NCBI RefSeq assembly: GCF_020181595.1
Contig: NZ_CP084028.1
Span: 510,867-574,866, forward strand
From: [Mycobacterium] vasticus
GTDB lineage: Bacteria; Actinomycetota; Actinomycetes; Mycobacteriales; Mycobacteriaceae
Direction: 5' to 3'
Length of the DNA: 64,000 nucleotides
Shown here: piece after piece, positions 5,504-33,120 of the stretch
Numbering within the stretch: position 1 is the stretch's first letter
How the letters are laid out: the number at the start of each line of letters is the position of its first letter
Made by a program: the position numbers and the translations under genes
The notes under the pieces: model-generated
Seen by the model: only the letters and a program-made list of their open reading frames with translations
Databases searched by the model: none
Told to the model about the DNA's origin: nothing

Positions 5504-5714
5504 GGCACGCACCAACATCGATCTCGATGATGAACTCACCGCTGAGGTGATGCGTCGCTTCGGTGTGACGACGAAGAAGGCGGCCGTGGATCTCGCCTTG
5601 CGGCGGCTGGTCGGCACCCCCCTGAGCCGTGAATTCCTGCTCGGCCTTGAGGGCATCGGCTGGGACGGTGACCTCGATGAACTACGGAGTGAATCGCCCG
5701 GCGACATCCGATGA
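5502..5714 (+). CDS. vapB: VapB-type antitoxin
   Basis: 70 residues starting [38 protein letters not shown], the DUF2191/VapB pattern: a short N-terminal ribbon-helix-helix DNA-binding region and a C-terminal toxin-binding tail ([18 protein letters not shown]). It neutralises the PIN toxin encoded next and should repress the operon. The first in-frame ATG (5502) was preferred over an upstream TTG-type extension because homologues begin with this motif. ATGA overlap (5711-5714) couples it to vapC. Confidence 0.88.
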
Positions 5715-6115
5715 TCCTGGTCGACACTTCCGCGTGGATCGAGTACTTCCGGGCCACCGGATCGATTGCAGCGCTGGAAGTGCGGCGTCTGCTCTCCGAT
5801 GAGCCGGATCAGGTGCTGACCTGCGAGCCGGTGGCGATGGAGATCTTGGCCGGGGCGACCACGGACACCAGGTACGGCAGACTCGAGCGCCTGGTCAACG
5901 GTTTGGAGTCGCTAGAAGTGGAGCCGGCACGCGACTTTCGTTCGGCCGCCGACATCTACCGTGCGGCGCGACGCTCGGGCCGGACCATCGGCAGCATCAA
6001 CGACTGCCTGATCGCCGCCATTGCGCTGCGCCGCCGCGTCCCGGTCGCGCACCGAGACGCCGACTTCGACGTCATCAGTGAGATCACCGGCCTGACGGCC
6101 ATCTCGCTGCGCTGA
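5711..6115 (+). CDS. vapC: VapC-type PIN domain toxin
   Basis: 134 residues, a single PIN domain. It begins [13 protein letters not shown] with the first metal-binding Asp, has the conserved Glu in [11 protein letters not shown], and ends with [26 protein letters not shown], carrying the remaining acidic residues. VapC proteins are Mg2+-dependent RNases that cleave tRNA or rRNA. It overlaps vapB by four bases and is convergent with the monooxygenase gene that ends at 6123. Confidence 0.92.
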
Positions 6116-6122
6116 GACGAGA

Positions 6123-7298
6123 TCAGGAGATCCGGTAGTCGGGCAGGTCGAAGTCGTCGCGCACCCCGCCGGCGAGCAGGTTGGCCAGCGGCCGAAGGTT
6201 CATCGCCCGGATCGCCACGCCGCGAAACCACAGCCCGAATCGTGTTCGGGTGGCGAAGAACCCGAGGAATTGGCGGGCCCCGGCCTGTTTGCTCTCGATG
6301 AACGGCCGCAACCGGGTTTCGTAGCGTTCGAAGGCCCGCCGGTGGTCGTCGTCGCGCAGCTCGCCGGCCAGCACGTAGGCCTCGGTGATCGCCAGGCCGG
6401 TGCCCTCGCCGCCCAGCAGTGAGATGCACCCAGCGGCGTCGCCGATCAGCAGTACCCGCCCTCGCGACCAGCGCTCCATGCGGACCTGGCTGACCACGTC
6501 GAAGTAGAGGTCTCCCGAGTCGTGAAGGCCGTCGTCGAGCGCGTCCAACATCTGCCGGCATTCCCAACCGGCATCCCCGAACTGGTTGCGCAACGCGGCT
6601 TTCGGGTCGGCGTCGACTTCGGCGGAGGGGTCGCGGTAGACGAACAGGAACATGGTGCGGTCGTCGCGCAGTGCGACCCGTGCGACCTGTCGGCCGGGCA
6701 CGGCGTAGGTGACGTAGGTCAGCTCGTCGCGGGGCCGGTAGCCGTCGACGACGCAGGCGGCGACCTTGCAGCCCAGGTAGTGCTCGAAGTCGCGGTGCGG
6801 GCCGAACACCAGCCGGCGCACGTTCGAGTGCAGGCCGTCGGCACCGATCAGCAGGTCGAAGTCGCGCGGTCCGGCGTGTGCGAACGTCAGCGCGACGCCG
6901 TCGTCGTGCTCGTCGACGGCGGTGATGGTGTCGCCGTAGATCATCTCGACGTCATCGGCGATGGTGGCGTGGATGGTGGCGGCCAGGTCCCCGCGGGGCA
7001 GGCTGGTGAAATCCTGTCCGAGCAGGTGCCGAAAGACGTTGGTGTCCAACGCTGCAACGGTGCTGCCGTCAGCGCCGACGGTCCGCACGGACTCGATCTC
7101 ATAGCCCGCTTCTAGGAGCGCTGCCTCGATGCCCATGCGGCGGGCCACGGTGTATCCGACGCCCCAGAAGTCGATCATGTAGCCGCCGGACCGGAAGGCC
7201 GGGGCCTGCTCGATCACGGTCGGGGTGTGACCGGTGCGGTGCAACCAGTGTGCGAGTGCCGTCCCGGCCACTCCTGCACCGCTGATCGCGATCCGCAT
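6123..7298 (-). CDS. FAD-dependent monooxygenase (PHBH/TetX-like)
   Basis: 391 residues, group A flavin monooxygenase. The FAD-binding GxGxxG is ISGAGVAGTALAHWLHRTGH at the N-terminus, the DG motif is DLLIGADGLHSNVRR, and the GD motif is RVLLIGDAAGCISLLGGEGTGLAITEA. Such enzymes hydroxylate aromatic or polyketide-type substrates with NAD(P)H and O2; several relatives inactivate antibiotics, but the substrate is not evident here. The gene starts four bases after the stop of the membrane protein upstream (7303-9669), so the two are probably one transcription unit. Confidence 0.9.
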   Translation of the reverse strand: MRIAISGAGVAGTALAHWLHRTGHTPTVIEQAPAFRSGGYMIDFWGVGYTVARRMGIEAALLEAGYEIESVRTVGADGSTVAALDTNVFRHLLGQDFTSLPRGDLAATIHATIADDVEMIYGDTITAVDEHDDGVALTFAHAGPRDFDLLIGADGLHSNVRRLVFGPHRDFEHYLGCKVAACVVDGYRPRDELTYVTYAVPGRQVARVALRDDRTMFLFVYRDPSAEVDADPKAALRNQFGDAGWECRQMLDALDDGLHDSGDLYFDVVSQVRMERWSRGRVLLIGDAAGCISLLGGEGTGLAITEAYVLAGELRDDDHRRAFERYETRLRPFIESKQAGARQFLGFFATRTRFGLWFRGVAIRAMNLRPLANLLAGGVRDDFDLPDYRIS

Positions 7299-20357: not shown

Positions 20358-21370
20358 GTGTCGTCGACGCCGACCTGCTCGTCGTGGGCGGCGGGCCGGC
20401 CGGCTTGGCTGCCGCGTTGTACGCACGCCAAAACGGGCTTTCGGTGATCGTCGCCGAACCACGTGACACCCCGATCGACAAGGCCTGCGGTGAGGGCCTG
20501 ATGCCGGGCGGGCTGGCCGCGTTGACATCGCTGGGCGTGGACCCGGCCGGTGCGCCGTTGCGCGGCATCGCCTACCTCGACGAGCATCGCCGGGTGGAAG
20601 CACCGTTTCGCGACGGGCCGGGGCGCGGGGTGCGCCGCACCACCCTTCACGCGGCACTGGCGGATCAGGCCAAGCGGCACGACGTGCGATGGATCGCCGA
20701 GCGGGTCAGCACCGTTGAGCAGGACGCCGCAGGGGTGAGCGCGGCCGGGATCCGGGCGACGTGGTTGATCGCCGCCGACGGACTGCACTCCACGGTGCGC
20801 CGCAGCCTCGGAATCCCCTGCGTCGCCGGCACTCCCCGGCGCTACGGGGTGCGATGGCACTACCGCATTCCGGCTTGGTCGGAGTTCGTCGAGGTGTACT
20901 GGTCGCGGTGGGGTGAGGCCTATGTGACGCCGGTCGAACCGGAGCTGGTGGGCGTGGCGATCCTGTCGCAGCATCGCCCCGACCTCGACTGGTTTCCCGA
21001 GTTGTCGGCCCGCGTCGCCGGTGCGCGACGCGGGCCGGCCCGCGGCTGCGGCCCGATGCGCCAGGTGGTTTCGCGCCGGGTCGACGGCCGGGTGCTGCTG
21101 GTCGGAGACGCCGCGGGCTATGAGGACGCCCTGACCGGCGAGGGCATCAGCCTGGCCGTCCGGCAGGCGTCCGCCGCCGTCGCCGCGATCACCGCCGGGA
21201 ACCCGGCCGCCTACGAGCGAGCCTGGCCGCAGATCACCCGCCGCTATCGGCTGCTCACCCGAGCGCTCGTGCTGGCAGGCGGACCGCAGCTGACCCGGCG
21301 GGCCGTGGTGCCGGCCTGCGCGCTGCTGCCAGGCGTGTTCGAGAGTGCCGTGCATCTGCTGGCGCATTGA
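20354..21370 (+). CDS. FAD-dependent oxidoreductase (geranylgeranyl reductase/hydroxylase-like)
   Basis: 338 residues from the GTG inside the ICMT stop. ADLLVVGGGPAGLAAALYARQNGLSVIVAEP is the ADP-binding fold, WLIAADGLHSTVRR the DG motif, and GRVLLVGDAAGYEDALTGEGISLAVRQ the GD motif. The PIDKACGEGLMPGGL stretch is typical of the geranylgeranyl-reductase-like flavoprotein group. It probably oxidises or hydroxylates the aromatic polyketide made by the first gene. Its last 116 bases are overlapped by the reading frame of the convergent aminotransferase. Confidence 0.88.
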   Translation: MSVVDADLLVVGGGPAGLAAALYARQNGLSVIVAEPRDTPIDKACGEGLMPGGLAALTSLGVDPAGAPLRGIAYLDEHRRVEAPFRDGPGRGVRRTTLHAALADQAKRHDVRWIAERVSTVEQDAAGVSAAGIRATWLIAADGLHSTVRRSLGIPCVAGTPRRYGVRWHYRIPAWSEFVEVYWSRWGEAYVTPVEPELVGVAILSQHRPDLDWFPELSARVAGARRGPARGCGPMRQVVSRRVDGRVLLVGDAAGYEDALTGEGISLAVRQASAAVAAITAGNPAAYERAWPQITRRYRLLTRALVLAGGPQLTRRAVVPACALLPGVFESAVHLLAH

Positions 21371-22349
21371 GTGCCCGCCCGAGGGCGGACAGCACCATCC
21401 GGGTGGACTCCCGGGATCCGATCGTGATGCGCACCGCGCCATCGGGATAGTGCCGCACCTGCAGGCCGGCGAACACGTCGCGCCACGGCCGGACACCAGC
21501 CGGCAGGTACACGAAGTTCGCCTGCGAGTCGGTGGTGGCCACGCCCGCCTCCCACAACCGGGACCGCAGGCAGCGACGTTCGGCGGTGATGGCCCCGATG
21601 CGTTGCCGCAGCTGGGCTTCGGCGCCATAGGATGCCGCCACCGCCACCAGGCAGTCGGCCGGGATGCCGAACGGCACCTGCATGTCCCACAGCGTCGCCG
21701 CCAGGTCCGGTGCGGCCAGGCCGTATCCGATCCTTAGCCCGGCCAGTCCGTAGGCCTTGGAGAAGGTGCGCAGCACAACCACATTCGGGAACCGCCGCAG
21801 CACCGCCGCAGGGTCGATGCGCTGGTTCGGCGCCACGAACTCGATGTAGGCCTCATCGAGCAGCACGACGGTATCGGCCGGTATCCGCTGCAGGAATGCG
21901 TCGACGTCGGCGAGGGGCTCCAGCGTGCCGGTCGGATTGTGCGGGCGGCACAGCACCACCACCCGGGCGTCTGCGGCGGCACGGATCATCGCGGCCAGAT
22001 CATGGCGGCCGTAGTGGTCGAGCGGGACATCGACCGTGCTCAGCCGGGCGATCCGGGCGAAGATCGGATAGCCGTCGAACGTGGGACGGCTCAGCACGAT
22101 CCGATCGCCCGGAGAAGTCAACGCGGACAGCACCTGCATGGCCACCCCGGACGCGCCGGAACCCAGCACCACACTGTCCTCGGGCACGCCGGCGTGCTGG
22201 GCCACCAACCGCCGCAGCCGGGTGGGCAGGAAGTCCGGGTATCGGTTGGCAGCACCGGCGGACCTGATCAGCGCCGCCCGCACCGCCGGCAGCGGAGCAA
22301 AGGGATTCTCGTTGAGGGACAACGCCGATGGGTCCAGCGCCGAGATCAT
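21255..22349 (-). CDS. PLP-dependent aminotransferase, histidinol-phosphate aminotransferase-like
   Basis: 364 residues from the ATG that overlaps the KAS III stop (ATGA). Fold type I aminotransferase: LSLNENPFAPLPAVR, GSGASGVAMQVL (phosphate loop), CRPHNPTG, LLDEAYIEF, and the PLP lysine Lys198 in TFSKAYGLAGLRIGYG. The pattern is HisC-like, but its place in a polyketide/fatty-acid-type operon argues for amination of an oxoacyl-derived ketone rather than histidine synthesis. The C-terminal ~39 residues (after GRALNAPADARHS) are Ala/Arg/Pro-rich and run antisense into the FAD oxidoreductase gene, so the real domain probably ends near 21370. Confidence 0.88.
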   Translation of the reverse strand: MISALDPSALSLNENPFAPLPAVRAALIRSAGAANRYPDFLPTRLRRLVAQHAGVPEDSVVLGSGASGVAMQVLSALTSPGDRIVLSRPTFDGYPIFARIARLSTVDVPLDHYGRHDLAAMIRAAADARVVVLCRPHNPTGTLEPLADVDAFLQRIPADTVVLLDEAYIEFVAPNQRIDPAAVLRRFPNVVVLRTFSKAYGLAGLRIGYGLAAPDLAATLWDMQVPFGIPADCLVAVAASYGAEAQLRQRIGAITAERRCLRSRLWEAGVATTDSQANFVYLPAGVRPWRDVFAGLQVRHYPDGAVRITIGSRESTRMVLSALGRALNAPADARHSRTRLAAARRPAPRPAGSAAVRLPARALG

Positions 22350-23368
22350 CGCTCTCGTCCGCCCCACCGGATGGCCGCCGCGCCCGCGAAGTCACCGGCG
22401 TGGGCGAACGCGGCCATCACGACCACGTCGCCGCGGTCGATCCGCTGCTCGGTGGCCGCCCGATCCAGGTTGATCGGGATCGCCGCGCCGAACAGGTTTC
22501 CGCACTCATCGAAGGTATCGACGTGGCGTGCTTCGGGCAGTTCGAGTGCTTCGCGCCAGTTGCGCAGGAAGACCCGGTTGGGCTGATTGGTGACCAGCAG
22601 GCCGATATCGGCGGGAGATAGGCCGAGCCGATGGCACAGGGCCAGCGCGACCTCGGGGACCTGCCGGTTGCCGCGAGCCAGCACCTTGGTGATCTTGTCC
22701 TCGGTGAAGCCGATGTAGGCGGAACCGAGCCCGGGCTGCCACCACTTTCGCGGCGGGTCGATGGTGTAGGTCATGTCCCCGGCGTACTGGCCGTAGGTGC
22801 GGCACACGACGTCGAGGATCGGCGATCGATCCGAGCACGTCACCAGACCCACCGCGGCACCGTCGCCGGGAACCGATGCCTGCGACTTGCCCCGCACGGC
22901 CGGTTGGTCGAAGATCTGACCGGCCGCGTTCTGGGCGATCGCGATCAGCGCGGTGCGCCCCGCGCCGGCTGTCAACAGTTGGCGGGCTACGTTGAGGCCC
23001 AACAGGAATGCCGCGCATCCGCCGTTGTGTAGGTCGAGCACCGTGGATGGGCGCATGCCCAACCGGTGGGCGATGCCGCCGCCGGAGCCGTTGAACGGAA
23101 TGTCCGGCAACTGGGTGTGGGTGATCAGAACGTCGACGCCTTCGATGACGTCGCGGCCGTGCCGTTCGATCAGTCCCTGCGCCGCCCGTTCGATCATGTC
23201 GGCCGCAGACTCGTCGGCGCCGACGTGGTGACGGAACCTGGGCGCCCGGAACATCAGGTTGTCCCGCAGCTCATCGGATTCGGCGAACTGCGCGTAGTAC
23301 TGCGCGGGAATCGGTTCGCCGGGAAGGTAACTGGAGACGTCGGTCAGGCTGATGGTGGGTTGACCCAT
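22346..23368 (-). CDS. 3-oxoacyl-ACP synthase III-like enzyme with altered active site
   Basis: 340 residues from MGQPTISLTDVSSYLPGEPIP; an upstream ATG would overlap the preceding gene. Thiolase-fold ketosynthase III: nucleophile Cys118 in LDLHNGGCAAFLLGLNVA, GDGAAVGLV, and Asn291 in FDECGNLFGAAIP. The catalytic His of the family motif HQAN is replaced: the sequence is NQPN (Asn261). Such changes occur in KAS III relatives that transfer acyl groups rather than decarboxylate malonyl-ACP, so acyl transfer or non-decarboxylative condensation is a reasonable inference. Second-last gene of the ThDP enzyme operon. Confidence 0.9.
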   Translation of the reverse strand: MGQPTISLTDVSSYLPGEPIPAQYYAQFAESDELRDNLMFRAPRFRHHVGADESAADMIERAAQGLIERHGRDVIEGVDVLITHTQLPDIPFNGSGGGIAHRLGMRPSTVLDLHNGGCAAFLLGLNVARQLLTAGAGRTALIAIAQNAAGQIFDQPAVRGKSQASVPGDGAAVGLVTCSDRSPILDVVCRTYGQYAGDMTYTIDPPRKWWQPGLGSAYIGFTEDKITKVLARGNRQVPEVALALCHRLGLSPADIGLLVTNQPNRVFLRNWREALELPEARHVDTFDECGNLFGAAIPINLDRAATEQRIDRGDVVVMAAFAHAGDFAGAAAIRWGGRER

Positions 23369-23375
23369 GATCGGC

Positions 23376-24041
23376 TCACCGCATCCAGGCCGGCGTGATC
23401 GGGAGACCATGTTGGTGGCGGTACTCCGCGATCGCGGTGAGGTTCTTCAGCTCCAGCAGGTGACCGGCGCTGAACATGTCCCAGAAATCACCCACCCACA
23501 CCGGGCGCTCGGCCGGCGCGGCCTCCGGATAGGGGTTGTGGTCGTAGAACGGGTGGTGGCAGTTGGTCCACAGCACCACCGATCCGGGCTTGTTCAGCAC
23601 CACCTGGGCGTCGACGACCCGCAGCAGGTAGATCATCCACAGATGGTGGCCCTGATCCCAGGCGCAGTGGTAATCGACTGTCCGAGAACGGCTATCGGCG
23701 ACGGTGCGGGTGTAGATCTCGGTCTGCGATCCGAGCCGGTCGTAGGCGAGCCACAGTCCGAGCTCCTTGGTGGGGGTGAAGCCGCGCAGACTGTAGGTCC
23801 ACTCTTCGAGGCACCGGGTGTCGGCCAGGTAGTCGAACAGCTCGTCGGGCGGGCAGTCGATGTAGCCGTTGACGGTGCAGTAGTCCCCGAAGACCATGTC
23901 GTGCGGGTACACCGACCGCATCATCTCCATGATGATCGGGGTGGCCACCTGCCGGGGACTGGTCTCGATGCGGACCAGACCGTCGATGGCGTCGGCCGAA
24001 CCGGTGTGGGCGGCGATATCAGCGAGTGCTGGCAGTGACAT
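23376..24041 (-). CDS. SRPBCC-superfamily protein (polyketide cyclase-like)
   Basis: 221 residues from MSLPALADIAAHTG, preceded by AGGAGGATC at good spacing. The stretch VNGYIDCPPDELFDYLADTRCLEEWTYSLRGFTP is the START/SRPBCC opening, and HHLWMIYLLRVVDAQVVLNKPGSVVLWTNCHHPFYDHNPYP is a His-rich later strand. Such helix-grip proteins bind hydrophobic ligands and include polyketide aromatases/cyclases. It overlaps the end of the ThDP gene by 23 bases and precedes the KAS III by seven, so it is in the middle of a tight operon. Exact reaction unknown; the His-rich segment might bind metal. Confidence 0.8.
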   Translation of the reverse strand: MSLPALADIAAHTGSADAIDGLVRIETSPRQVATPIIMEMMRSVYPHDMVFGDYCTVNGYIDCPPDELFDYLADTRCLEEWTYSLRGFTPTKELGLWLAYDRLGSQTEIYTRTVADSRSRTVDYHCAWDQGHHLWMIYLLRVVDAQVVLNKPGSVVLWTNCHHPFYDHNPYPEAAPAERPVWVGDFWDMFSAGHLLELKNLTAIAEYRHQHGLPITPAWMR

Positions 24042-25728
24042 GGACGTGATCCTCCTCAGGGATAGGTGGCGCGGCGCTGAGAAACGGTGCGAACGGCGGG
24101 AGTTCATCGGCGGCGCACTGCACGCCGATCACCGACGGGCCGTCGTGGGCCAGAGCGGTGCGCACCGCGGCGACGAATCCGCCGGCGTCGGTGGTGTCGA
24201 TGGCGTGCAGCCCCGGGAACATCGACGCCACACCGGCGCCGAGGTGACTGGGTGTGAACCCGTTGTAGCTGTGCAGGCCCTCGAAGAACAGCTGTTCGCG
24301 GGCCACGCACATGGCGTGAGCATTGTTGTTCAGCAACACGAACATGATCGGGAGCCGGTACTGCACCGCGGTGTGGATCTCCATGCCGTGCATGAAGAAT
24401 GCCCCGTCGCCGGCGACCACCACGGTGCGCCGGCCCCGGCCGGCCGCCATCCCGATGCCGGCGCCGAAGCTGTAGCCCATCCCGCCCATACCCAGGGCGA
24501 CCAGGAACCGGCCGTCGCGTCGCGGCGGCAGGTAGTGGATGGCCGCGGCGCCGGTGTTGCCGGCGTCGACGACGATGTCGGTCCCGTCGGGCAGTTCGCG
24601 GTCGAGGACGGCCATCGCGTCCCGGTAACGCACTCCCGGCCCGGTGCAGGGTGGGGGGCGCAGCTCCGTGCGCCCCAGGGTGTCGGGCACCCTCAGCCAC
24701 CGGGGCCGTCCGGGCCCGGACAGCGCGTCGCACAGGATCCGCAGCGATGCCCGCAGGTCGACGGTCTGCACGTGTGTGCACGGCAGATACGGTGGCGCCG
24801 AGCCGATCGACAGGGTGCGGGTCGCCCCCAGCGCCTCATCGAGCCCACCGCGTGCGGTCTGCGATAGCCGGGTACCCACCACCAGGCACAGTGCACTGCT
24901 GGCGATGGCGTCGGCGACCGTGGGGTGGCCCATCACGCCGGACACGCCCAGCGCCGACGACGAGCCGAAACCCGGTGTGCCGGAGACGTCTTTGGCGTCG
25001 GGTACGCACACCACCCTGGCTCGCAGCAGGGTGCGCAGTTGTTCGAGTTCTTCCCGGGCGTCGTCGCGGGCCACCTGTTCTCCGGCGATGATGGTGACCG
25101 GGCCGTGCGCAATGTGCAGCGCACACAGAATGGGTTGCGGGCTGCTGATGACCTGCGGCTCGGCGGCCCGGTGACCGTTGCGCGGACAGCCGCCGGTCGT
25201 GACGGTGCCCTGCTGAACGTCTTTGGGCAACAACAGCACCGCCGGACCGCCGCGGCGGGCTGCGGCGAGGGCGCGTGGCAATGCCGAGACGATGTCGTCG
25301 GGGTTGAGCACCCGTTCGCAGAACACCGACACGGTCGAGAACAGTGCTTCGGCGTTCAGTGTGCCGTTGCGGCCACTGGTGTCCTGGAAACTGCCGCGGC
25401 CGTCCATGGCATGCGGGGCCTGGCCGACCAGGGCCAGCACCGGGACGCGGCTGGTGAACGATTCACCCAGTGCCGCCACCAGATTCAACGCGCCGCCGCC
25501 CGAGGTCGCGGCCACCACCCCCAGGCCGGCGCCGCTGCGGCTGTATCCGTCGGCCATGGTGGCGGCCCCGAACTCGTGCTTGGCCAGCACCATGGTGATG
25601 TCGGGCTGGAAGTAGGCGGCGTCGAAGAGGTCTTCGATGTTCGCGCCGTCCACACCGAATATGTGGCGGACTCCGGCGGTCGTCAGTCGAGTGACAAGGT
25701 GATCGACCGCGGAATGTTTCCTGGACAT
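24019..25728 (-). CDS. thiamine diphosphate-dependent enzyme (acetolactate synthase/decarboxylase-like)
   Basis: 569 residues from MSRKHSAVDHLVTRL. Three-domain ThDP fold: N-terminal PYR domain with the cofactor-activating Glu52 in LAKHEFGAATMADGYSR, a central Rossmann domain, and the C-terminal PP domain with VVVAGDGAFFMHGMEIHTAVQ (GDG near 440) and LLNNNAHAM (metal/diphosphate motif). These enzymes make acyl-anion equivalents from 2-oxo acids, giving decarboxylation or carboligation to acyloins. It is the first gene of an operon with SRPBCC, KAS III and aminotransferase genes. The ATG follows the SigL-type -10 by six bases, so a leaderless mRNA is predicted; the longer upstream frame is therefore rejected. 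Confidence 0.9.
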   Translation of the reverse strand: MSRKHSAVDHLVTRLTTAGVRHIFGVDGANIEDLFDAAYFQPDITMVLAKHEFGAATMADGYSRSGAGLGVVAATSGGGALNLVAALGESFTSRVPVLALVGQAPHAMDGRGSFQDTSGRNGTLNAEALFSTVSVFCERVLNPDDIVSALPRALAAARRGGPAVLLLPKDVQQGTVTTGGCPRNGHRAAEPQVISSPQPILCALHIAHGPVTIIAGEQVARDDAREELEQLRTLLRARVVCVPDAKDVSGTPGFGSSSALGVSGVMGHPTVADAIASSALCLVVGTRLSQTARGGLDEALGATRTLSIGSAPPYLPCTHVQTVDLRASLRILCDALSGPGRPRWLRVPDTLGRTELRPPPCTGPGVRYRDAMAVLDRELPDGTDIVVDAGNTGAAAIHYLPPRRDGRFLVALGMGGMGYSFGAGIGMAAGRGRRTVVVAGDGAFFMHGMEIHTAVQYRLPIMFVLLNNNAHAMCVAREQLFFEGLHSYNGFTPSHLGAGVASMFPGLHAIDTTDAGGFVAAVRTALAHDGPSVIGVQCAADELPPFAPFLSAAPPIPEEDHVHVTASTR

Positions 25729-25734
25729 GCCAGT

Positions 25735-25762
25735 GACACGGCACGAAACTCCCATTGGTTCA
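25735..25762 (-). promoter_or_regulatory. SigL-type promoter overlapping the rslA stop codon
   Basis: Minus strand TGAACC (25762-25757), 16 bases, CGTGTC (25740-25735), six bases, then ATG of the ThDP gene. The first three bases of the -35 are the TGA stop codon of rslA. It should give SigL-dependent, leaderless expression of the four-gene operon in addition to read-through from sigL-rslA. Confidence 0.78.
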
Positions 25763-26446
25763 CATCGTGCGCTCCAACAGCACATTGCCGTTGTCAGCCG
25801 AAACAACTTGCACCGCAGCGATTTGATCGGTGGGCGTCGAGATGCTGCCCGCCGGCGTCGCGGTGTGGCCGGGCTGTGCCACCCAGGTCGCCAGCCGGGT
25901 CTGGCTGCCGTCACGGCCGACGACCACTAGTGCCAGGGTGTCGTGGTGGGCGGTGACCGGCGCCAGGCAGACACAGCTCAAGTCGATGACGCTGCCCCAG
26001 GGCATGCTGCTGACCGCGACGGTCGAGGCCAGTGCGGTGGTGCCCACCTGCGCCATCGGCAACCCAGTGGGCGCCGGCGGGCTCGATGGGGAACCGCCGA
26101 CACCGACCAGTACTCCGATGCCCAACACGGCGGCAGCGGCAGCGGATGCGGTCCACGTCAGCAGCCGGGTGCGGCGTCGTCGTCGCCGCACGGTGTCCAG
26201 CAGTGTCGGCAACAGTTCGTCGGATAGCGCCGCGGGTTCGGCGTCGCCGATGGCGGCCACCGTGGCGGGTTCGAGTTGGGACAGCAGCGCCGGGACGCCG
26301 CTGATCTCGCTGACCGCGGCCCGGCACGCCGGGCAGCCGGTCAGGTGGTCCTCGAACTCGCGGCGGTCGGCCGCCGACAGTGAACCCAGGACGTAGGCGG
26401 CGTCCCACATCGCGTAGCGGTGGCCGTCGTCGATCGGCGTGCTCAT
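25760..26446 (-). CDS. rslA: RslA-like zinc-associated anti-sigma factor
   Basis: 228 residues. The cytoplasmic N-terminal anti-sigma domain contains His34-x3-Cys38-x2-Cys41 (HLTGCPACRAAV), the zinc-binding signature, within MWDAAYVLGSLSAADRREFEDHL. A basic stretch (RRRRRRTRLL) precedes one transmembrane helix near residues 95-115, and an extracytoplasmic domain of ~110 residues with a CVC motif follows. In M. tuberculosis RslA binds domain 4 of SigL and releases it on oxidation (from memory). ATGA overlap with sigL. Its stop codon forms part of the next promoter. Confidence 0.9.
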   Translation of the reverse strand: MSTPIDDGHRYAMWDAAYVLGSLSAADRREFEDHLTGCPACRAAVSEISGVPALLSQLEPATVAAIGDAEPAALSDELLPTLLDTVRRRRRRTRLLTWTASAAAAAVLGIGVLVGVGGSPSSPPAPTGLPMAQVGTTALASTVAVSSMPWGSVIDLSCVCLAPVTAHHDTLALVVVGRDGSQTRLATWVAQPGHTATPAGSISTPTDQIAAVQVVSADNGNVLLERTM

Positions 26447-26976
26447 CGCGTCACTCCCATCTCCTGCAAAGCCAGGCGCAGCGCCCGCACCGCGTAGTGC
26501 AGGCGAGATTTCACCGTTCCCTCGGCGATGTCGAGGTCGTCGGCGATCTGGCCGGTGGTCCAGCCACGGTAGTAGGCCCGTTCGATCACGGCCCGGTGTT
26601 CGGTCGACAGTTGGGTCATCGCCTCGGCGATCAGCATCCGATCCAGTGCGCCGTCCACCTCGTCGCGGGTGGGCTGCTCTGGTGCGGTGGTCTCGTCGAA
26701 TGAGCTGACGACGTTGCGGAAGCGGGCGCTGCGCCGCTCGTCGATGATCATGTTGCGCGCGACGGTGCACAGCCAGGCCCGCGGTGAGCGCTCGGTGTCG
26801 CTGGTGACCTCCGGGTGCTGCCAGGCCCGCAGCAGCGTCTCCTGGACGACGTCTTCGGCGCGGGCCCGGTCGCCGGTCAGACGCATCGCGTAGCGCCACA
26901 GCATGGCGGCATGCTCGTCGTAGAGCGTCCGCATCAACGCGGCTTCCTGGTCCGGCGGGACACCGAATCGAGGCAC
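26443..26976 (-). CDS. sigL: ECF sigma factor SigL
   Basis: 177 residues from GTG 26976. An upstream GTG at 26985 would lie directly on the AAGGAGG ribosome site (26991-26985), whereas 26976 is spaced by eight bases and gives the same length as M. tuberculosis SigL. Domain 2 is LYDEHAAMLWRYAMRLTGDRARAEDVVQETLLRAWQHPE with ARNMIIDERRSARF; domain 4 is LSTEHRAVIERAYYRGWTTGQIADDLDIAEGTVKSRLHYAVRALRLALQEMG. It forms an overlapping pair with rslA and has its own SigL-type promoter, so it should autoregulate. Its targets in the window appear to be the neighbouring polyketide and dioxygenase operons. Confidence 0.93.
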   Translation of the reverse strand: MPRFGVPPDQEAALMRTLYDEHAAMLWRYAMRLTGDRARAEDVVQETLLRAWQHPEVTSDTERSPRAWLCTVARNMIIDERRSARFRNVVSSFDETTAPEQPTRDEVDGALDRMLIAEAMTQLSTEHRAVIERAYYRGWTTGQIADDLDIAEGTVKSRLHYAVRALRLALQEMGVTR

Positions 26977-26997
26977 GCAGATCACCTCCTTCCTAGT

Positions 26998-27025
26998 GAC
27001 ACGGGGTGCGCACCCGTCGGGTTCA
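26998..27025 (-). promoter_or_regulatory. SigL-type promoter of sigL-rslA
   Basis: Minus strand TGAACC (27025-27020), 16 bases, CGTGTC (27003-26998). The predicted transcription start at ~26991 falls on the first base of AAGGAGG, giving a leader that consists of little more than the ribosome-binding site. Confidence 0.78.
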
Positions 27026-27051: not shown

Positions 27052-28602
27052 TCAGTCGGCGATCCAGTTCCCGTGGAATCCGTGCGGCACGCGCTGCGGC
27101 AGCCGCACCCGGGCGACCGGTTTCGCGTCGAAGTGGGCGGCGTCGATGATCACCAGGTCGCTGCCATCGCGCACCGGGTCGTAGACGTAGGTCAGATACC
27201 AGCCGGCCGATTCGTCGGCCTGCCCCCGGGCCGGCGCGAACACCGCCTCACCGGGGGTGCCGGACAGGCCGTTGAGGCCGAACCGGTGCACCTCGGCGCT
27301 ACCCCGCGCCAGGTCGTAGCGCAGCAGGCTGTTGTTGGTGACGGTGACGGCATAGCGGGCGTCGGCGCCGATCAGCCGGTCGTCGACGCGGGGGAACTCG
27401 ACGTGCCGGTCGTCGAGCTGGACCTGTTCGACGGTGCCGGTCGCGAGGTTGATCGTCCAGCGCCACAAGGCGGCATCGGTCTCGAAATCACTGTTGTGGC
27501 GCCACATCTCCGGGTAGCGGACCACCTGCAGCACTATCGCGTCGCCGTGTTGAGATGGTGCGTCGAAGGCGTTGGCGATGTGGAAGACGTAGCAGGGGTC
27601 GACGTCGAACCAGTGCACCGGGCCGTACGGGTCGTCGCGGCGCAGCACCCCCAGTCGGGCGCCGTAGTCGTCGTCCCAGCGGAACGGCAGGTCACGGTCG
27701 TAGCGTCCGGTGAGCGCGACCTCCAGGTTGAACACCAGTGGCAGATCCAGGAATACGACATGCTCGGTGGTCAACGCGAAGTCGTGCATCAGCGTCATGC
27801 CGGGCACGTCGATGGGCCTCCGGATGGTCAGCTCGCCGTCGGCGGTCGCCCGGTAGTAGTTGACGTGCGGATCGAGGATGTCGCCGAGGCCGAAGAAGTG
27901 CAGCTCGCCGGTGGTGGGGCAGATCTTGGGGTGCGCGGACATGGAATCGGATAGTTTCCCGGCGAAGTCGTAGACGCCCAACGTCTTGAGGTCGGTGGTG
28001 ATCTCGTACGGCAGTGAGGATTCCATCAACGCCAAGGTCTTGCCGGCGTGGCGGATCACGTGGGTGTTGGCGACGCTGGCATGCAGGTTGCGGCTGCCGT
28101 CGTCGTTGAACAGCTCCGGTGGGCGCCCGAAGCTCTCGGTGCGCACCCAGCGGTTGCGGTACCAGGCCGCCCGCCCGTTCTCCAGCCGCACCCCGTGGAC
28201 CATTCCGTCGCCGGTGCACCAGTGTCCGCCCGCGGCACGGGGATTGGGCCCGTTGCGCAGATACCAGCCGTTCAGTTCGGCTGGGATGTGTCCCTCGACG
28301 GGCAGATCGAATGCGGTGAGTTCGTCGGGTACCGGGGCATAGTTGCCGGTGCGGAAGATCGGAAAGACCGTCTCCGGGGGCTGGATCACCGGGGCAGCGG
28401 ATCGCGGGTGAGCGGTGGCGGCGGCGTCGTCGTGATCCACCAGCGACAGCAGTGCCGGCAGCCCCGACAGTTCGTTGACCGCGTCCCGGCAGGACAGGCA
28501 CCCGGTGAGGTGCGCCTCGAACTCGCGATGGTCGGACTCCGACAGCGACCCCAGGACGTAGGCGGCATCCCACAGGGCGTACTCGTGGCGGGAGGTGGTC
28601 AT
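27052..28602 (-). CDS. anti-sigma (RslA-like) domain fused to carotenoid cleavage dioxygenase
   Basis: 516 residues in one uninterrupted frame from the ATG overlapping the sigma4 gene stop. Residues 1-58 (EYALWDAAYVLGSLSESDHREFEAHLTGCLSCRDAV) are an RslA-type anti-sigma domain with zinc ligands His31, Cys35 and Cys38, nearly collinear with RslA encoded just downstream. No transmembrane helix follows. From about residue 78 to the end is a full carotenoid oxygenase (RPE65/CCD family) with the four iron-binding histidines: His224 (SAHPK), His273 (MHDF), His341 (FHIAN) and His510 (GFHGNW). CCDs cleave carotenoid or related conjugated double bonds with O2. The fusion is predicted soluble and cytoplasmic. 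It could sense or make an apocarotenoid and pass that state to a sigma domain, or be a fusion by deletion that keeps only the enzyme; both are inference. Confidence 0.9.
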   Translation of the reverse strand: MTTSRHEYALWDAAYVLGSLSESDHREFEAHLTGCLSCRDAVNELSGLPALLSLVDHDDAAATAHPRSAAPVIQPPETVFPIFRTGNYAPVPDELTAFDLPVEGHIPAELNGWYLRNGPNPRAAGGHWCTGDGMVHGVRLENGRAAWYRNRWVRTESFGRPPELFNDDGSRNLHASVANTHVIRHAGKTLALMESSLPYEITTDLKTLGVYDFAGKLSDSMSAHPKICPTTGELHFFGLGDILDPHVNYYRATADGELTIRRPIDVPGMTLMHDFALTTEHVVFLDLPLVFNLEVALTGRYDRDLPFRWDDDYGARLGVLRRDDPYGPVHWFDVDPCYVFHIANAFDAPSQHGDAIVLQVVRYPEMWRHNSDFETDAALWRWTINLATGTVEQVQLDDRHVEFPRVDDRLIGADARYAVTVTNNSLLRYDLARGSAEVHRFGLNGLSGTPGEAVFAPARGQADESAGWYLTYVYDPVRDGSDLVIIDAAHFDAKPVARVRLPQRVPHGFHGNWIAD

Positions 28603-28874
28603 GGCGCCAGTCCCATGTCTCGCAGGGTCTGCTGGAGGGCGTGCAACGCGTAGTGCAGCTGGGCCTTCACGCTGGCTTCGGCGATGCCCAGGTCGGCGGC
28701 GATCTGCCCGGTGGTCCAGCCGTGGTGGTAGGCGCGGCGCAGTAGCCCCTGGTTGTCGGGGGACAGTTGCGCCAAGGCGTCGTTGACCAGGATGCGGGCG
28801 GAATCGTGACCCATCGCGGCCGCGGTCTGACCGCGGTCGAATATCCACCTGTTGCTGGTTTCGTCGAAACCCAT
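28599..28874 (-). CDS. orphan sigma domain 4 protein (ECF, SigL-like)
   Basis: 91 residues from ATG 28874, preceded by GGGAGG at seven bases. Residues ~32-88 (LAQLSPDNQGLLRRAYHHGWTTGQIAADLGIAEASVKAQLHYALHALQQTLRDMG) align directly with SigL domain 4, including the helix-turn-helix that should read the -35 element. There is no domain 2, no linker and no -10 recognition part; the first ~30 residues are not sigma-like. It overlaps the anti-sigma-dioxygenase gene by ATGA, as sigL overlaps rslA. It could bind the anti-sigma domain of the fusion, titrate RslA away from SigL, or sit on TGAACC sites as a decoy. It is not simply a decayed gene fragment, since start, ribosome site and promoter are intact. 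Confidence 0.85.
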   Translation of the reverse strand: MGFDETSNRWIFDRGQTAAAMGHDSARILVNDALAQLSPDNQGLLRRAYHHGWTTGQIAADLGIAEASVKAQLHYALHALQQTLRDMGLAP

Positions 28875-28893
28875 AGACCAGCCTCCCGGAAGT

Positions 28894-28921
28894 GACACGA
28901 CACGGCGGGGCGTTCGGTTCA
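28894..28921 (-). promoter_or_regulatory. SigL-type promoter of the sigma4/anti-sigma-dioxygenase operon
   Basis: Minus strand TGAACC (28921-28916), 16 bases, CGTGTC (28899-28894). The predicted start at ~28887 coincides with the GGGAGG ribosome site, the same minimal-leader arrangement as for sigL. This supports descent of the operon from a sigL-rslA duplicate and its continued control by SigL. Confidence 0.78.
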
Positions 28922-28999: not shown

Positions 29000-29785
29000 C
29001 TAATTCGCAGCGTCCGGCCCGGTGGTGACCAGCGTCAGCTCCCAGGCGGCCAGCCACGGCTTGATCAACTGTGCGACGGAGTACTTGTGGGGGCCATCGC
29101 ATTTCGGTTCGGAGTAGTCGCCGTTGGACACCGCGATGAAAATCCCGACGGCTTCGGCGGTGCCGTCGGGCAGAACCCGGTAGGTGGGGCCGCCGGAGTC
29201 CCCGCAGATGCCGGTGGTGGCGAAGCGGACCTTGTTCGCCTCGGCGGCGACCACCGGCCCGCACAGCGCCCCGCCGCTGCGAATCCCGAGATGGCACAGG
29301 GTCTCTCCGACCTCGACGTGCTCGGCCAGTCCCGTCAGCGGGTGTCCGTCGACCTCGGAGGTCAGCGCGATCCTGCCGGGGTGATCGAGGGTGATCAGCC
29401 CGATGTCGAAGTCGTTCCAGTCCGAGCCGTCGTTGACGCTTTCGGTGAAGGTGCCCACCACCGGGTACTTGTAGAGCCCGCCGTGGTGCACCGCCACCTG
29501 GCCCGGCCCGCCGCCGGTGTTGCAGTGCCCGGCGGTGAGAAGCCCGGGCCGGCCGTCCTTGGTGCGCACCAGAAAACCCGCGGTGCAGGCGACGTTGTCC
29601 GAGCCGTCCGCGGGGCTGACGTTGATGCCGATCCCGGGGCCCAGGGCGTGGGCGGTCGGGGTGGGGATGGGATGGCGCAGCGGGTGGGTGTGGTTGACCC
29701 AGATCGCGCTGCCGAGGATCGCGATGAAGACGACGACGGTGATGATGCGGCCCGCCAGGGTCTTGAGCGAGCGCTTCGGCGGCAC
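29000..29785 (-). CDS. trypsin-like serine protease, membrane-anchored or secreted
   Basis: 261 residues. An N-terminal basic stretch and one hydrophobic segment (about 13-30, IITVVVFIAILGSAIWV) form a signal anchor. The chymotrypsin-fold triad is visible: His87 in LLTAGHC, Asp127 in NDFDIGLITL and Ser197 in CGDSGGP, with Cys67/Cys88 and Cys164/Cys175 likely disulphides. It should act outside the cytoplasmic membrane; substrate unknown. Its tandem paralogue (29796-30590) is 10 bases upstream and shares most of the sequence pattern, pointing to a local duplication. Confidence 0.9.
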   Translation of the reverse strand: MPPKRSLKTLAGRIITVVVFIAILGSAIWVNHTHPLRHPIPTPTAHALGPGIGINVSPADGSDNVACTAGFLVRTKDGRPGLLTAGHCNTGGGPGQVAVHHGGLYKYPVVGTFTESVNDGSDWNDFDIGLITLDHPGRIALTSEVDGHPLTGLAEHVEVGETLCHLGIRSGGALCGPVVAAEANKVRFATTGICGDSGGPTYRVLPDGTAEAVGIFIAVSNGDYSEPKCDGPHKYSVAQLIKPWLAAWELTLVTTGPDAAN

Positions 29786-29795
29786 GGAGCTGACT

Positions 29796-30590
29796 CTACT
29801 GTTCCTGACCCGGGCGGTCCGTCGTCACCAGTGTCAGGTCCCAGGCGCGCAGCCATGGCTTGATCATCTGGGCGATCGAATACTCGTGGACCTCATCGCA
29901 TGTCGGCTCGGAATGGTCGCCGTTGGATACCTCGATGTAGATGCCGACGGCTTCGGCGGCCCCGTCGGGACGGAGTCGGTAGACCGGCCCGCCGGAGTCT
30001 CCGCACTGCCCGGTCGCCGCGAACCGCACTTTGTTCTGGTCGGCATAAGCCACCGGCCCGCACACCGTCGTATCGCTGCGAATGCCGAAGTGGCAGAGAA
30101 TATCCCCCTGTTCGACTTGCTCGGCGAGGCCGACCAGCGGGTGGCCGTCCACGTCCGGAGTCAGCTCGATACCGTCGATGCCCTTGTGCTCCAGGGTGAT
30201 CAGCCCGATGTCGAAGTCGGTCCACTGGTTGCCGCCATGCACGCTCTCGACGAACCGGCCGACCTCCGGATACACGTACAGCCCGCCGTGGTGGATGGTG
30301 ACGGTCCCGTCGGTACCCGGCTCATTGCAATGTCCGGCCGAGAGCAGCCCGGGCTGGCCGTCGGCGGTGTGCACCAGGAAGCCCGCCGTGCAACTGATCC
30401 CGTTGGTGCCGTTCGGTCGGGTGATGTCGATGCCGATACCCGGGCCGATCGCGTGCGCTGCTGGCATCGGGATGTTCTGGCGTCCCGGGTGGGTGTGGTC
30501 CACCCAGAGCGCGGCGGTGACGATCGCAACGATGACGGCGCCGCCGGCGACCTTGCCGGTCAGGGCTTTGAAGACTCTTCGCAGGGCAAT
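29796..30590 (-). CDS. trypsin-like serine protease, tandem paralogue, probable ATT start
   Basis: The frame is open from a TAA at 30602-30600. No ATG, GTG or TTG occurs until GTG 30503, but a start there would delete the membrane anchor. Upstream codons read RRVFKALTGKVAGGAVIVAIVTAALW, which aligns with the anchor of the sister protein (KRSLKTLAGRIITVVVFIAILGSAIW). The aligned start is ATT at 30590 (or CTG two codons later), giving 264 residues against 261 in the sister. His (SAGHC), Asp (TDFDIGLITL) and Ser (CGDSGGP) are all present, so the protease should be active outside the membrane. A plain GTG start at 30503 (235 residues, no anchor) is the alternative. Confidence 0.78.
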   Translation of the reverse strand: MALRRVFKALTGKVAGGAVIVAIVTAALWVDHTHPGRQNIPMPAAHAIGPGIGIDITRPNGTNGISCTAGFLVHTADGQPGLLSAGHCNEPGTDGTVTIHHGGLYVYPEVGRFVESVHGGNQWTDFDIGLITLEHKGIDGIELTPDVDGHPLVGLAEQVEQGDILCHFGIRSDTTVCGPVAYADQNKVRFAATGQCGDSGGPVYRLRPDGAAEAVGIYIEVSNGDHSEPTCDEVHEYSIAQMIKPWLRAWDLTLVTTDRPGQEQ

Positions 30591-31712: not shown

Positions 31713-33120
31713 GGCGTGGTGTACGGGCTGGTAGGCCTGGTGGGCGTGTCATAGCCCGATAGGGGGCGGTCATCGCGTGATTCTTCGAAACGACCGGCAA
31801 AGTCACTCGAAGGAGAACAACGCGATGACCAACGACCACCTTATCGACGCCGAGCAGCTGTTGGCTGATCAACTCGCGGCTGCCAGTCCCGATCTGCTGC
31901 GCGGGCTGCTGTCGACGTTCGTTCACGCTCTGATGGCCGCCGAGGCCGACGCCATCTGCGGGGCGGGCTACCGCCAGCGCAGCGACGAACGGTCCAACAG
32001 CCGCAACGGGCACCGGCACCGGGACTTCGACACCCGGGTCGGCACCATCGACGTGGGCATCCCCAAGTTGCGCCAGGGCAGCTATTTCCCGGACTGGCTG
32101 CTGGAGCGCCGCAAACGTGCCGAACGTGCGCTCACCTCGGTGGTCGCGACCTGCTACTTGCTCGGAGTATCCACCCGAAGAATGGAACGATTGGTCGAAT
32201 CCCTTGGCGTAACACGGCTTTCCAAGTCGCAGGTGTCGATCATGGCCCAAGAACTCGACGAGCAGGTGGAGGCATTCCGCACCCGACCGCTAGACGCCGG
32301 CCCGTACACGTTCGTCGCTGCCGATGCGCTGGTGCTCAAGGTCCGCGAAGCCGGCCGCGTGGTCGGCGTGCACACCCTGATCGCCACCGGGATCAACGCC
32401 GAGGGCTACCGCGAGATCCTCGGTGTTCAGGTCAGCACCGCCGAAGACGGCGCGGGCTGGCTGGCGTTCTTCCGCGATCTCGTGGCCCGCGGCCTGTCCG
32501 GGGTGGCTTTGGTGACCAGCGATGCCCACGCCGGTCTAGTTGCCGCGATCGGCGCCACGCTGCCCGGAGCGGCCTGGCAGCGCTGCAGAACCCACTACGC
32601 GGTCAACCTGATGGCGACAACTCCGAAGCCATCCTGGCCATGGGTACGCACTCTGTTGCACTCCATCTACGACCAACCTGATGCGGAATCAGTTGTTGCC
32701 CAATGTGATCGCGTGCTCGATGCACTGACCGAAAAGCTCCCTCACGTCGCTGAGCATCTCGATGCAGCCCGCGCGGACCTGCTGGCGTTCACCGCATTCC
32801 CCAAGCAGATCTGGCGCCAGATCTGGTCCAACAATCCCCAAGAACGCCTCAACAAAGAGATCCGGCGCCGCACCGACGTCGTGGGCATCTTCCCCGACCG
32901 CGGAAGCGTCATCCGTCTCGTCGGGGCAGTCCTGGCCGAACAACACGACGAATGGATCGAAGGTCGACGCTACCTCGGTCTCGACGTCCTCACCCGCGCC
33001 CGAGCGGGCCTCGCCAGCACCGAACAGTCCGGCCACCAGCAAACGCCGACCACACCGGCCCTAACCGCCTAAACTGCCACCCGAAGGATCACGCGATCAC
33101 GCGACTCCTTACACCACGCC
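31713..33120 (+). mobile_element. IS256-family insertion sequence
   Basis: A full-length transposase gene is flanked by the inverted termini GGCGTGGTGTA (31713-31723) and TACACCACGCC (33110-33120), 11 bp perfect with weaker similarity further in (for example shared CGCGTGATnCTTCG-like sequence, 31785-31795 and the complement of 33080-33096). I see no 8-9 bp target duplication at the borders, so the element may have recombined or the true ends may be a few bases away. It is inserted at the 5' side of the HNH gene. Confidence 0.8.
31825..33072 (+). CDS. IS256-family transposase
   Basis: 415 residues from ATG 31825 with GAAGGAG upstream. It has the DDE catalytic layout of the Transposase_mut family: Asp in YTFVAADALVLKVRE, Asp in VALVTSDAHAGLVAAIG, and Glu in WSNNPQERLNKEIRRRTDVVGIFPD. 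An N-terminal region with RNGHRHRDFDTRVGTIDVGIPKLRQGSYFPDWLLERRKRAERAL precedes it. The C-helix WxxC-like WQRCRTHYAVNLM is intact. The gene looks complete and the element therefore potentially active. Confidence 0.95.
   Translation: MTNDHLIDAEQLLADQLAAASPDLLRGLLSTFVHALMAAEADAICGAGYRQRSDERSNSRNGHRHRDFDTRVGTIDVGIPKLRQGSYFPDWLLERRKRAERALTSVVATCYLLGVSTRRMERLVESLGVTRLSKSQVSIMAQELDEQVEAFRTRPLDAGPYTFVAADALVLKVREAGRVVGVHTLIATGINAEGYREILGVQVSTAEDGAGWLAFFRDLVARGLSGVALVTSDAHAGLVAAIGATLPGAAWQRCRTHYAVNLMATTPKPSWPWVRTLLHSIYDQPDAESVVAQCDRVLDALTEKLPHVAEHLDAARADLLAFTAFPKQIWRQIWSNNPQERLNKEIRRRTDVVGIFPDRGSVIRLVGAVLAEQHDEWIEGRRYLGLDVLTRARAGLASTEQSGHQQTPTTPALTA

Follow-up and report, generated by a model that had tools for sequence, protein, structure and literature searches.

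Anti-sigma factors usually carry sensors, whereas in the 64,000-nucleotide stretch of DNA analysed here (the window; coordinates count from its first base) an anti-sigma domain (ASD) bears a complete enzyme, a carotenoid cleavage dioxygenase (CCD), and parallel lineages have trimmed the sigma partner down to what the ASD grips. The question raised by this locus is how such a pair arose and what it might do. Living species form a natural series in which region 2 of the sigma partner is complete, degraded or deleted, and this series allows one to ask which part of a sigma/anti-sigma pair does what and whether the state of the metabolic enzyme is signalled to an ECF sigma factor. The features of the locus are listed in Table 1.

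Table 1. Features of the sigma-4/fusion locus and of the adjoining genes (positions in the window)
Feature	Position	Strand	Evidence
SigL-type promoter TGAACC-N16-CGTGTC, upstream of the sigma-4/fusion pair	28894..28921	-	exact pattern match
GGGAGG, likely ribosome binding site (sigma-4 gene)	28882..28887	-	sequence reading
Sigma region 4-only gene, 91 aa	28599..28874	-	Pfam, 3hug_A match, pN/pS
ATGA overlap, sigma-4 stop/fusion start	28599..28602	-	NTGA in 29/29 loci
ASD-CCD fusion gene, 516 aa	27052..28602	-	frame, Pfam, structure matches, conservation
RslA-like zinc anti-sigma domain (ASD), residues 1-57	28432..28602	-	zf-HC2 and 3hug_B matches
Variable linker, residues 58-81	28360..28431	-	low identity, low pLDDT
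CCD domain, residues 82-516, with H224, H273, H341 and H510	27055..28359	-	RPE65, CCD structures, conservation
SigL-type promoter upstream of sigL	26998..27025	-	exact pattern match
Complete sigL, start uncertain	26443..26985	-	NCBIfam NF007227, 276.5 bits, above cut-off
rslA, ASD and hydrophobic membrane stretch (read by eye)	25760..26446	-	Pfam and sequence
SigL-type promoter upstream of the biosynthetic operon	25735..25762	-	exact pattern match
Thiamine-diphosphate enzyme, start uncertain	24019..25728	-	family search, query frame 24019-25737
243-aa protein without Pfam or NCBIfam family	23376..24107	-	family search
KAS III-like enzyme	22346..23410	-	family search
HisC-like aminotransferase	21255..22367	-	family search

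The original prediction had described the second gene as one continuous frame that joins an RslA-like zinc anti-sigma domain to a full dioxygenase with four iron histidines, and the sequence searches agree with it on each count. The frame of 516 codons contains no internal stop. Pfam zf-HC2 matched residues 14-39 (26.9 bits, cut-off 22.2) and RPE65 residues 88-514 (378.7 bits, cut-off 27), residues 3-66 resemble the crystallised ASD of RslA (3hug_B, E 4.2e-21), and the CCD part also matches solved CCD structures. A protein search returned 7896 matches, the best 120 of which (query included) are all 516-583 residues long; in 120/120 of these listed proteins H31, C35 and C38 as well as H224, H273, H341 and H510 are conserved, and the HXXXCXXC motif of the RslA-type ZAS domain is present in every one. 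The zinc ligands of RslA are given as His25, His50, Cys54 and Cys57 (PMC2877774); on reading by eye, H6 of the fusion aligns with His25, the fourth ligand, and a histidine stands there in 104 of the 120. A structure model, used solely for domain limits (mean pLDDT 71.9, moderate), predicts ASD helices at residues 4-16, 22-34 and 36-45 followed by CCD strands, with residues 50-72 at pLDDT below 50. The resulting limits lie near those first proposed and refine them to about 1-57 (ASD), 58-81 (linker) and 82-516 (CCD). Pairwise identity among the fusions averages 77% in the CCD, 67% in the ASD and 33% in the linker (residues 58-76). The membrane helix and the outer domain of RslA are gone, as had been noted, and the fusion of the window also lacks the fourth ASD helix of RslA.

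The first gene had been said to encode sigma domain 4 only, which the searches confirmed: Pfam Sigma70_r4 matched the 91-residue protein (34.1 bits) and Sigma70_r2 did not, so that the combination of regions 2 and 4 by which an ECF factor is recognised is absent. The protein resembles the region 4 chain of SigL (3hug_A, E 1.9e-19), and the solved relatives listed for it number two, SigL region 4 (3HUG) and SigL in RNA polymerase complexes. As both products match chains of 3hug, the view of the locus as a minimal sigma-4/ASD pair attached to an enzyme stands.

The same arrangement was found in other genomes. The fusion was detected in 19 of the 297 genus genomes searched, its own genome and 18 others, which score at least 788 bits and whose frames start with the ASD; all 13 lower-scoring loci that were read (L020-L030, L049 and L050) hold a standalone CCD without the ASD motif. 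Neither an ASD motif nor a sigL or rslA match was present beside standalone CCDs in the fetched stretches of the 21 loci read (the standalone loci L024 and L070 hold the same protein). In a collection of named genomes, 20 of the 34 returned loci carry the fusion, which thus occurs in Mycolicibacter sinensis, heraklionensis, longobardus, arupensis, engbaekii, kumamotonensis and icosiumassiliensis and also in Mycobacterium celatum, kyorinense and fragae. Outside the genus (58 of 61 family genomes), where the fusion was judged by the start of the match, no match listed starts before query residue 49. A frameshift, an assembly error or a one-strain artefact is ruled out by the many independent genomes with an intact fusion. 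For the comparisons below, a set of 29 loci was assembled from the window, the 20 loci of the named collection and 8 further ones, after loci judged to come from the same genome had been dropped.

In 29/29 of these loci the sigma gene lies directly upstream of the fusion with an NTGA overlap (28 ATGA, one GTGA). The order sigma, fusion, sigL, rslA is identical in all 18 other genus genomes fetched for the order check, and the arrangement is therefore beyond chance. Judged by its sequence, the sigma-4/fusion pair arose as a tandem copy of the directly adjoining downstream genes sigL-rslA and has since diverged. The original description of the pair as an altered copy of sigL-rslA thus holds; its sigma-4-only form turned out to be a derived state, since 8 of the 29 loci retain region 2 in the partner, in degraded form in three.

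To follow this history, the sigma partners were graded by their Pfam region 2 scores. Region 2 is good in 5/29 partners (66-67 bits, compared with 70.7 for SigL of the window), weak or degraded in 3/29 (34-50 bits) and absent in 19/29; in the remaining two (M. heraklionensis 1211594.5 and G174) the gene is cut off by the contig edge, and both were counted as truncated along with their close relatives, giving 21 in total. In the four loci of the M. celatum group, the sigma gene reads as region 4 preceded by a stub of the N-terminus, and in the clade of the window (17 loci) the N-termini of the sigma-4 genes differ. All 29 fusions fall on one side of a branch that separates them from 7 standalone CCDs (support 100/98). 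On the tree of the CCD core alone, a change between the complete and the truncated state of the partner has to be placed twice, and a single truncated clade was rejected by the AU test (p 0.0039), for which the groups were defined from the sigma genes, though after an earlier tree had been seen. The same grouping was recovered in the SigL tree, from which SigL of M. arupensis was excluded: the celatum and kumamotonensis groups join at 95/91 and the others at 98/97. An in-frame stop interrupts region 2 of sigL in the assembly of M. arupensis DSM 44942 (L059, about 5689-6230), where both genes of the sigma-4/fusion pair are intact. The eight region-2-bearing sigma-1 proteins separate from 28 SigL proteins at 99/96. 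No sigL match was found beside four outgroup anti-sigma loci, so the sigma tree shows the split of the two groups and no root. As the CCD tree contains two changes and regain is unlikely, region 2 was lost at least twice. Comparison of the loci shows that the partner was originally a complete ECF sigma factor and that the losses left region 4, the ASD and the overlap of the genes in place.

In known complexes, ASD helix 1 binds sigma region 4 and helix 4 binds region 2 (PMC7406223). Helix 4 was recognised by eye in 3 of the 29 fusions and in RslA at 25 of the 28 loci read (M. kyorinense is absent from the RslA rows), and all three fusions that have it stand beside a partner still carrying region 2. 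It should be noted that the two losses are not strictly in step, since helix 4 is also missing from the fusions of the five other loci whose partner has region 2. A motif search found a helix-4-like motif in 55 of the 120 listed proteins, a list that does not extend to their partner genes.

We then considered what has been kept in the truncated partner, hereafter the remnant. Over 8 disjoint pairs, pN/pS was 0.33 (0.21-0.47) in the remnant after the loss of region 2 and 0.16 in SigL region 4; within the fusion it was 0.23 (ASD), 0.58 (linker) and 0.17 (CCD). The remnant is thus under real constraint, though a relaxed one, with twice the value of SigL region 4. The Ser-Arg of the recognition helix is kept in 5/5 complete partners, 2/3 degraded ones, 1/4 of the celatum group and 0/17 of the window's clade. 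By contrast, a leucine is aligned in 29/29 sigma partners at the position that, mapped through RpoE numbering, would match the predicted ASD contact. Sigma-4 is about 50% identical to SigL region 4 in the remnant loci and 74% identical where the partner is complete, whereas helix 1 of the fusion's ASD remains on average 87% identical to that of RslA from the same genome (17 remnant loci). M. kyorinense is missing from these identity comparisons with SigL and RslA, which have 28 rows.

The expression signals were also compared. We take TGAACC to be the SigL -35 consensus. The pattern TGAACC-N16-CGTRTY has three exact matches in the window, against 0.00 in shuffled sequences, and these stand upstream of the pair, of sigL and of the biosynthetic operon. 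The whole genome contains five exact sites (none for a reversed control), including one upstream of an ABC-transporter-like gene, identified by eye, and one upstream of a flavin monooxygenase. In 16 other genomes the strict pattern occurs 1-7 times each and the reversed control 0-3 times, which makes single SigL-type sites away from the locus unreliable. A looser pattern (TGAACN, spacer of 15-18, CGT) was found upstream of the pair in 27/27 loci with upstream sequence, with a 16-base spacer in 26, and upstream of sigL in 27/29 (the exceptions are M. fragae and MYC123). Among the 27 pair sites, 24 read TGAACC, 20 have CGTG and 7 have CGTA, the A of the latter occupying the position at which SigL is most base-specific (PMC6372665). 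The pair's own SigL-type promoter did not figure in the original prediction. Control of the pair by SigL itself is what we infer from these sites. A separate stretch of the genome at 3430.8-3433.4 kb (L093:10815-13370), beside genes reading as secY, adk and map, has a SigL-type promoter followed by genes for a flavin monooxygenase, a DUF4389 protein and a methyltransferase; in M. tuberculosis it is sigL-rslA that stands beside secY, adk and map.

How could such a pair work? The two-gene mycobacterial operon, behind its SigL-type promoter, would produce a soluble RslA-type zinc ASD joined to a CCD-type iron dioxygenase, the CCD taking the place of the membrane and outer parts of RslA, and the translationally coupled upstream gene would make the binding partner of the ASD. 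The remnant, probably no longer a transcription factor, would dock on the ASD during synthesis of the enzyme, as SigL region 4 does on RslA. Less certainly, an uncapped ASD-CCD might hold SigL and a capped one might not. Uncapping could follow zinc loss or oxidation, as in RslA, or depend on the state of the CCD with respect to iron, oxygen or substrate, and the module would then act as a feedback loop linking SigL output to the state of the enzyme. In view of the gene coupling, the conserved ligands and the selection, the remnant most likely serves to dock on the ASD, and the free linker between two conserved flanking domains also supports this. The match of both products to the two chains of the solved RslA/SigL complex, the SigL-type promoters and the leucine kept through at least two losses of region 2 speak for the same explanation. 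That the ASD-CCD could hold SigL as well is suggested by helix 1, which has stayed close to that of RslA while sigma-4 drifted.

Studies of RslA (PMC2877774) provide the framework for these proposals: RslA occludes the promoter and polymerase faces of SigL region 4, the loss of zinc weakens RslA-SigL binding about eightfold, and co-expressed RslA and SigL region 4 copurified, whereas SigL region 4 alone did not bind RslA in plasmon resonance. The copurification speaks for docking. Besides the plasmon resonance result, three findings count against docking and feedback, namely the doubled pN/pS of the remnant, the A at the most specific base in 7/27 pair promoters and the loss of helix 4 in five loci with region 2. 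A docking pair combined with a SigL feedback module is nevertheless, from the sequence comparisons, the best explanation in our judgement, with the chances for and against it evenly balanced; feedback on SigL is its preferred and still unproved reading. Tentatively, and against somewhat longer chances, a sigma/anti-sigma pair may have become a protein switch on an enzyme at least twice, with the region-4 ligand setting the state of the dioxygenase and the enzyme reporting its iron, oxygen or substrate state to SigL.

Several other explanations use the same observations. Sigma-4 may be a docking subunit only, stabilising or allosterically tuning the CCD through the ASD with no contact to SigL or RslA; strict gene coupling, joint conservation and the drift of sigma-4 to about 50% identity with SigL region 4 (74% in complete partners) would fit, but the near identity of ASD helix 1 with that of RslA and the retained SigL-type promoter speak against it, and we consider this reading doubtful. 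It is also conceivable that the remnant mimics a sigma factor, titrating RslA and so freeing SigL in a positive feedback, with the ASD-CCD limiting the amount of remnant. The precedent is PhyR of the PhyR/NepR/EcfG system, in which a sigma-like domain, degenerate in its promoter and core regions and without transcription functions, titrates an anti-sigma factor (PMC8103513); a similar action through anti-sigma binding may be supposed for the remnant, and the loss of region 2 and of Ser-Arg in the window's clade is compatible with it. The remnant differs from PhyR in having no receiver domain, in its ASD partner being an enzyme and in keeping region 4 alone. Moreover, the overlapping gene brings an ASD of its own, expected to cap the remnant, and titration of RslA is in our view improbable. 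If the sigma gene were a decaying leftover, serving merely as a translated leader for the fusion and accompanied by a vestigial ASD, the repeated decay of region 2 would be explained, and the gene overlap could maintain the open frame. Purifying selection on the remnant (pN/pS at most 0.47 at its upper bound) and on the ASD, together with the zinc motif in all 120 listed proteins, argues against it, and decay is a little more improbable still.

The suggestion that the enzyme is placed at TGAACC sites, which had been part of the original prediction, did not survive the comparison. Descent of sigma-4 from a SigL-like region 4 speaks for it, but the recognition-helix Ser-Arg is gone in 17/17 loci of the window's clade, and RslA sterically blocks promoter binding by sigma-4 (PMC2877774); since the promoter-binding face is the one that RslA occludes, ASD and DNA should exclude each other on sigma-4, and such targeting is barely credible. 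Nor do we give any higher probability to a split sigma factor, in which the remnant would act with a separate region-2 protein. SigO with RsoA sets the precedent and, like the remnant, includes a stand-alone region 4 protein (PMC8103513), but the remnant of the window has lost the DNA-reading Ser-Arg, and none of the 11 Pfam region 2 matches in the genome is a region-2-only protein (8 have a Pfam region 4, one is SigL and two end in a region-4-like segment), a search that a too-diverged partner would escape.

The preferred reading, docking with feedback on SigL, was set against known systems. With SigL/RslA (3HUG) the pair of the window shares an ASD with HXXXCXXC, sigma region 4 and the SigL-type promoter; it differs in that its sigma protein has no region 2 and its anti-sigma protein lacks helix 4, the membrane helix and the outer domain and bears a CCD. 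ChrR of Rhodobacter, whose partner is RpoE, is a soluble zinc ASD followed by a cupin-like sensor (PMC8999054). A soluble zinc ASD preceding a folded, metal-binding domain is likewise seen in the fusion, and ChrR/RpoE is the closest architecture to the ancestral state; the CCD replaces the cupin and the sigma partner of the window is reduced to region 4. Judged by genes alone, a ChrR-like arrangement, with a soluble ZAS and folded domain beside a complete sigma factor, exists in 5 of the 29 loci. On the enzyme side, the mycobacterial CCD Rv0654 (MtCCO) shares its family and four iron histidines with the fusion (PMC5133782), whereas the CCD of the window is joined to an ASD and scores below the cut-off of the NCBIfam model given below. 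Among the matches listed in literature searches, for which most subscription journals lay beyond reach, we found neither an ASD joined to a CCD nor a region-4-only partner of an anti-sigma enzyme, in line with the original remark that no described system of this form was known to its author. That literature includes PMC7406223, PMC8999054, PMC5819568 and PMC9861118, with no ASD-CCD paper listed, and the terms carotenoid and dioxygenase have no occurrence in the main text of the anti-sigma classification PMC7406223. The derived sigma-4-only state may go beyond known systems.

The substrate of the enzyme bears on the proposed coupling of carotenoid cleavage to SigL. No member of the phytoene synthase family was found in 17 fusion genomes out of 19, that of the window among them, so that an endogenous carotenoid substrate is doubtful there; the other two fusion genomes and one of four other genomes do have the family. 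An endogenous carotenoid pathway was accordingly rejected as the partner of the enzyme. The best NCBIfam model for the CCD is 8'-apo-carotenoid 13,14-cleaving dioxygenase (397.5 bits, below the cut-off of 675), and the genome encodes at least two further CCDs. CCDs are iron enzymes. SigL of M. tuberculosis is needed for growth at low iron (PMC10449499), and a link between this role and the iron dependence of the CCD is speculative. Downstream of rslA, the operon at 21255-25762 (minus strand), behind its SigL-type promoter, looks like a small uncharacterised biosynthetic cluster; its first start codon (about 25728) is very near the promoter, and the transcript may therefore be leaderless. Its thiamine-diphosphate enzyme weakly matches a ScyA-related model, and it is a guess that the operon, with this enzyme and the aminotransferase, might supply the CCD substrate.

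Just upstream of the pair lie two chymotrypsin-like serine protease genes (29000-29785 and 29796-30503, minus strand); both products have an N-terminal hydrophobic stretch by eye, and the first weakly matches the Rv1815 family. Where the upstream sequence is available, a relative precedes the sigma-4 gene in 15/15 loci of the window's clade and in 0/12 others, with the AGHC motif in 14 and GDSGG in 10 of the 15. These serine proteases are candidates for the site-1 protease acting on RslA-type anti-sigma factors, an enzyme that PMC10449499 describes as unknown. Further along the window, a transposase-like frame of 431 residues, identified by reading, occupies 31777-33072 on the plus strand, and at about 50189 on the same strand there is another ECF sigma gene, whose product combines regions 2 and 4 with a long C-terminal extension.
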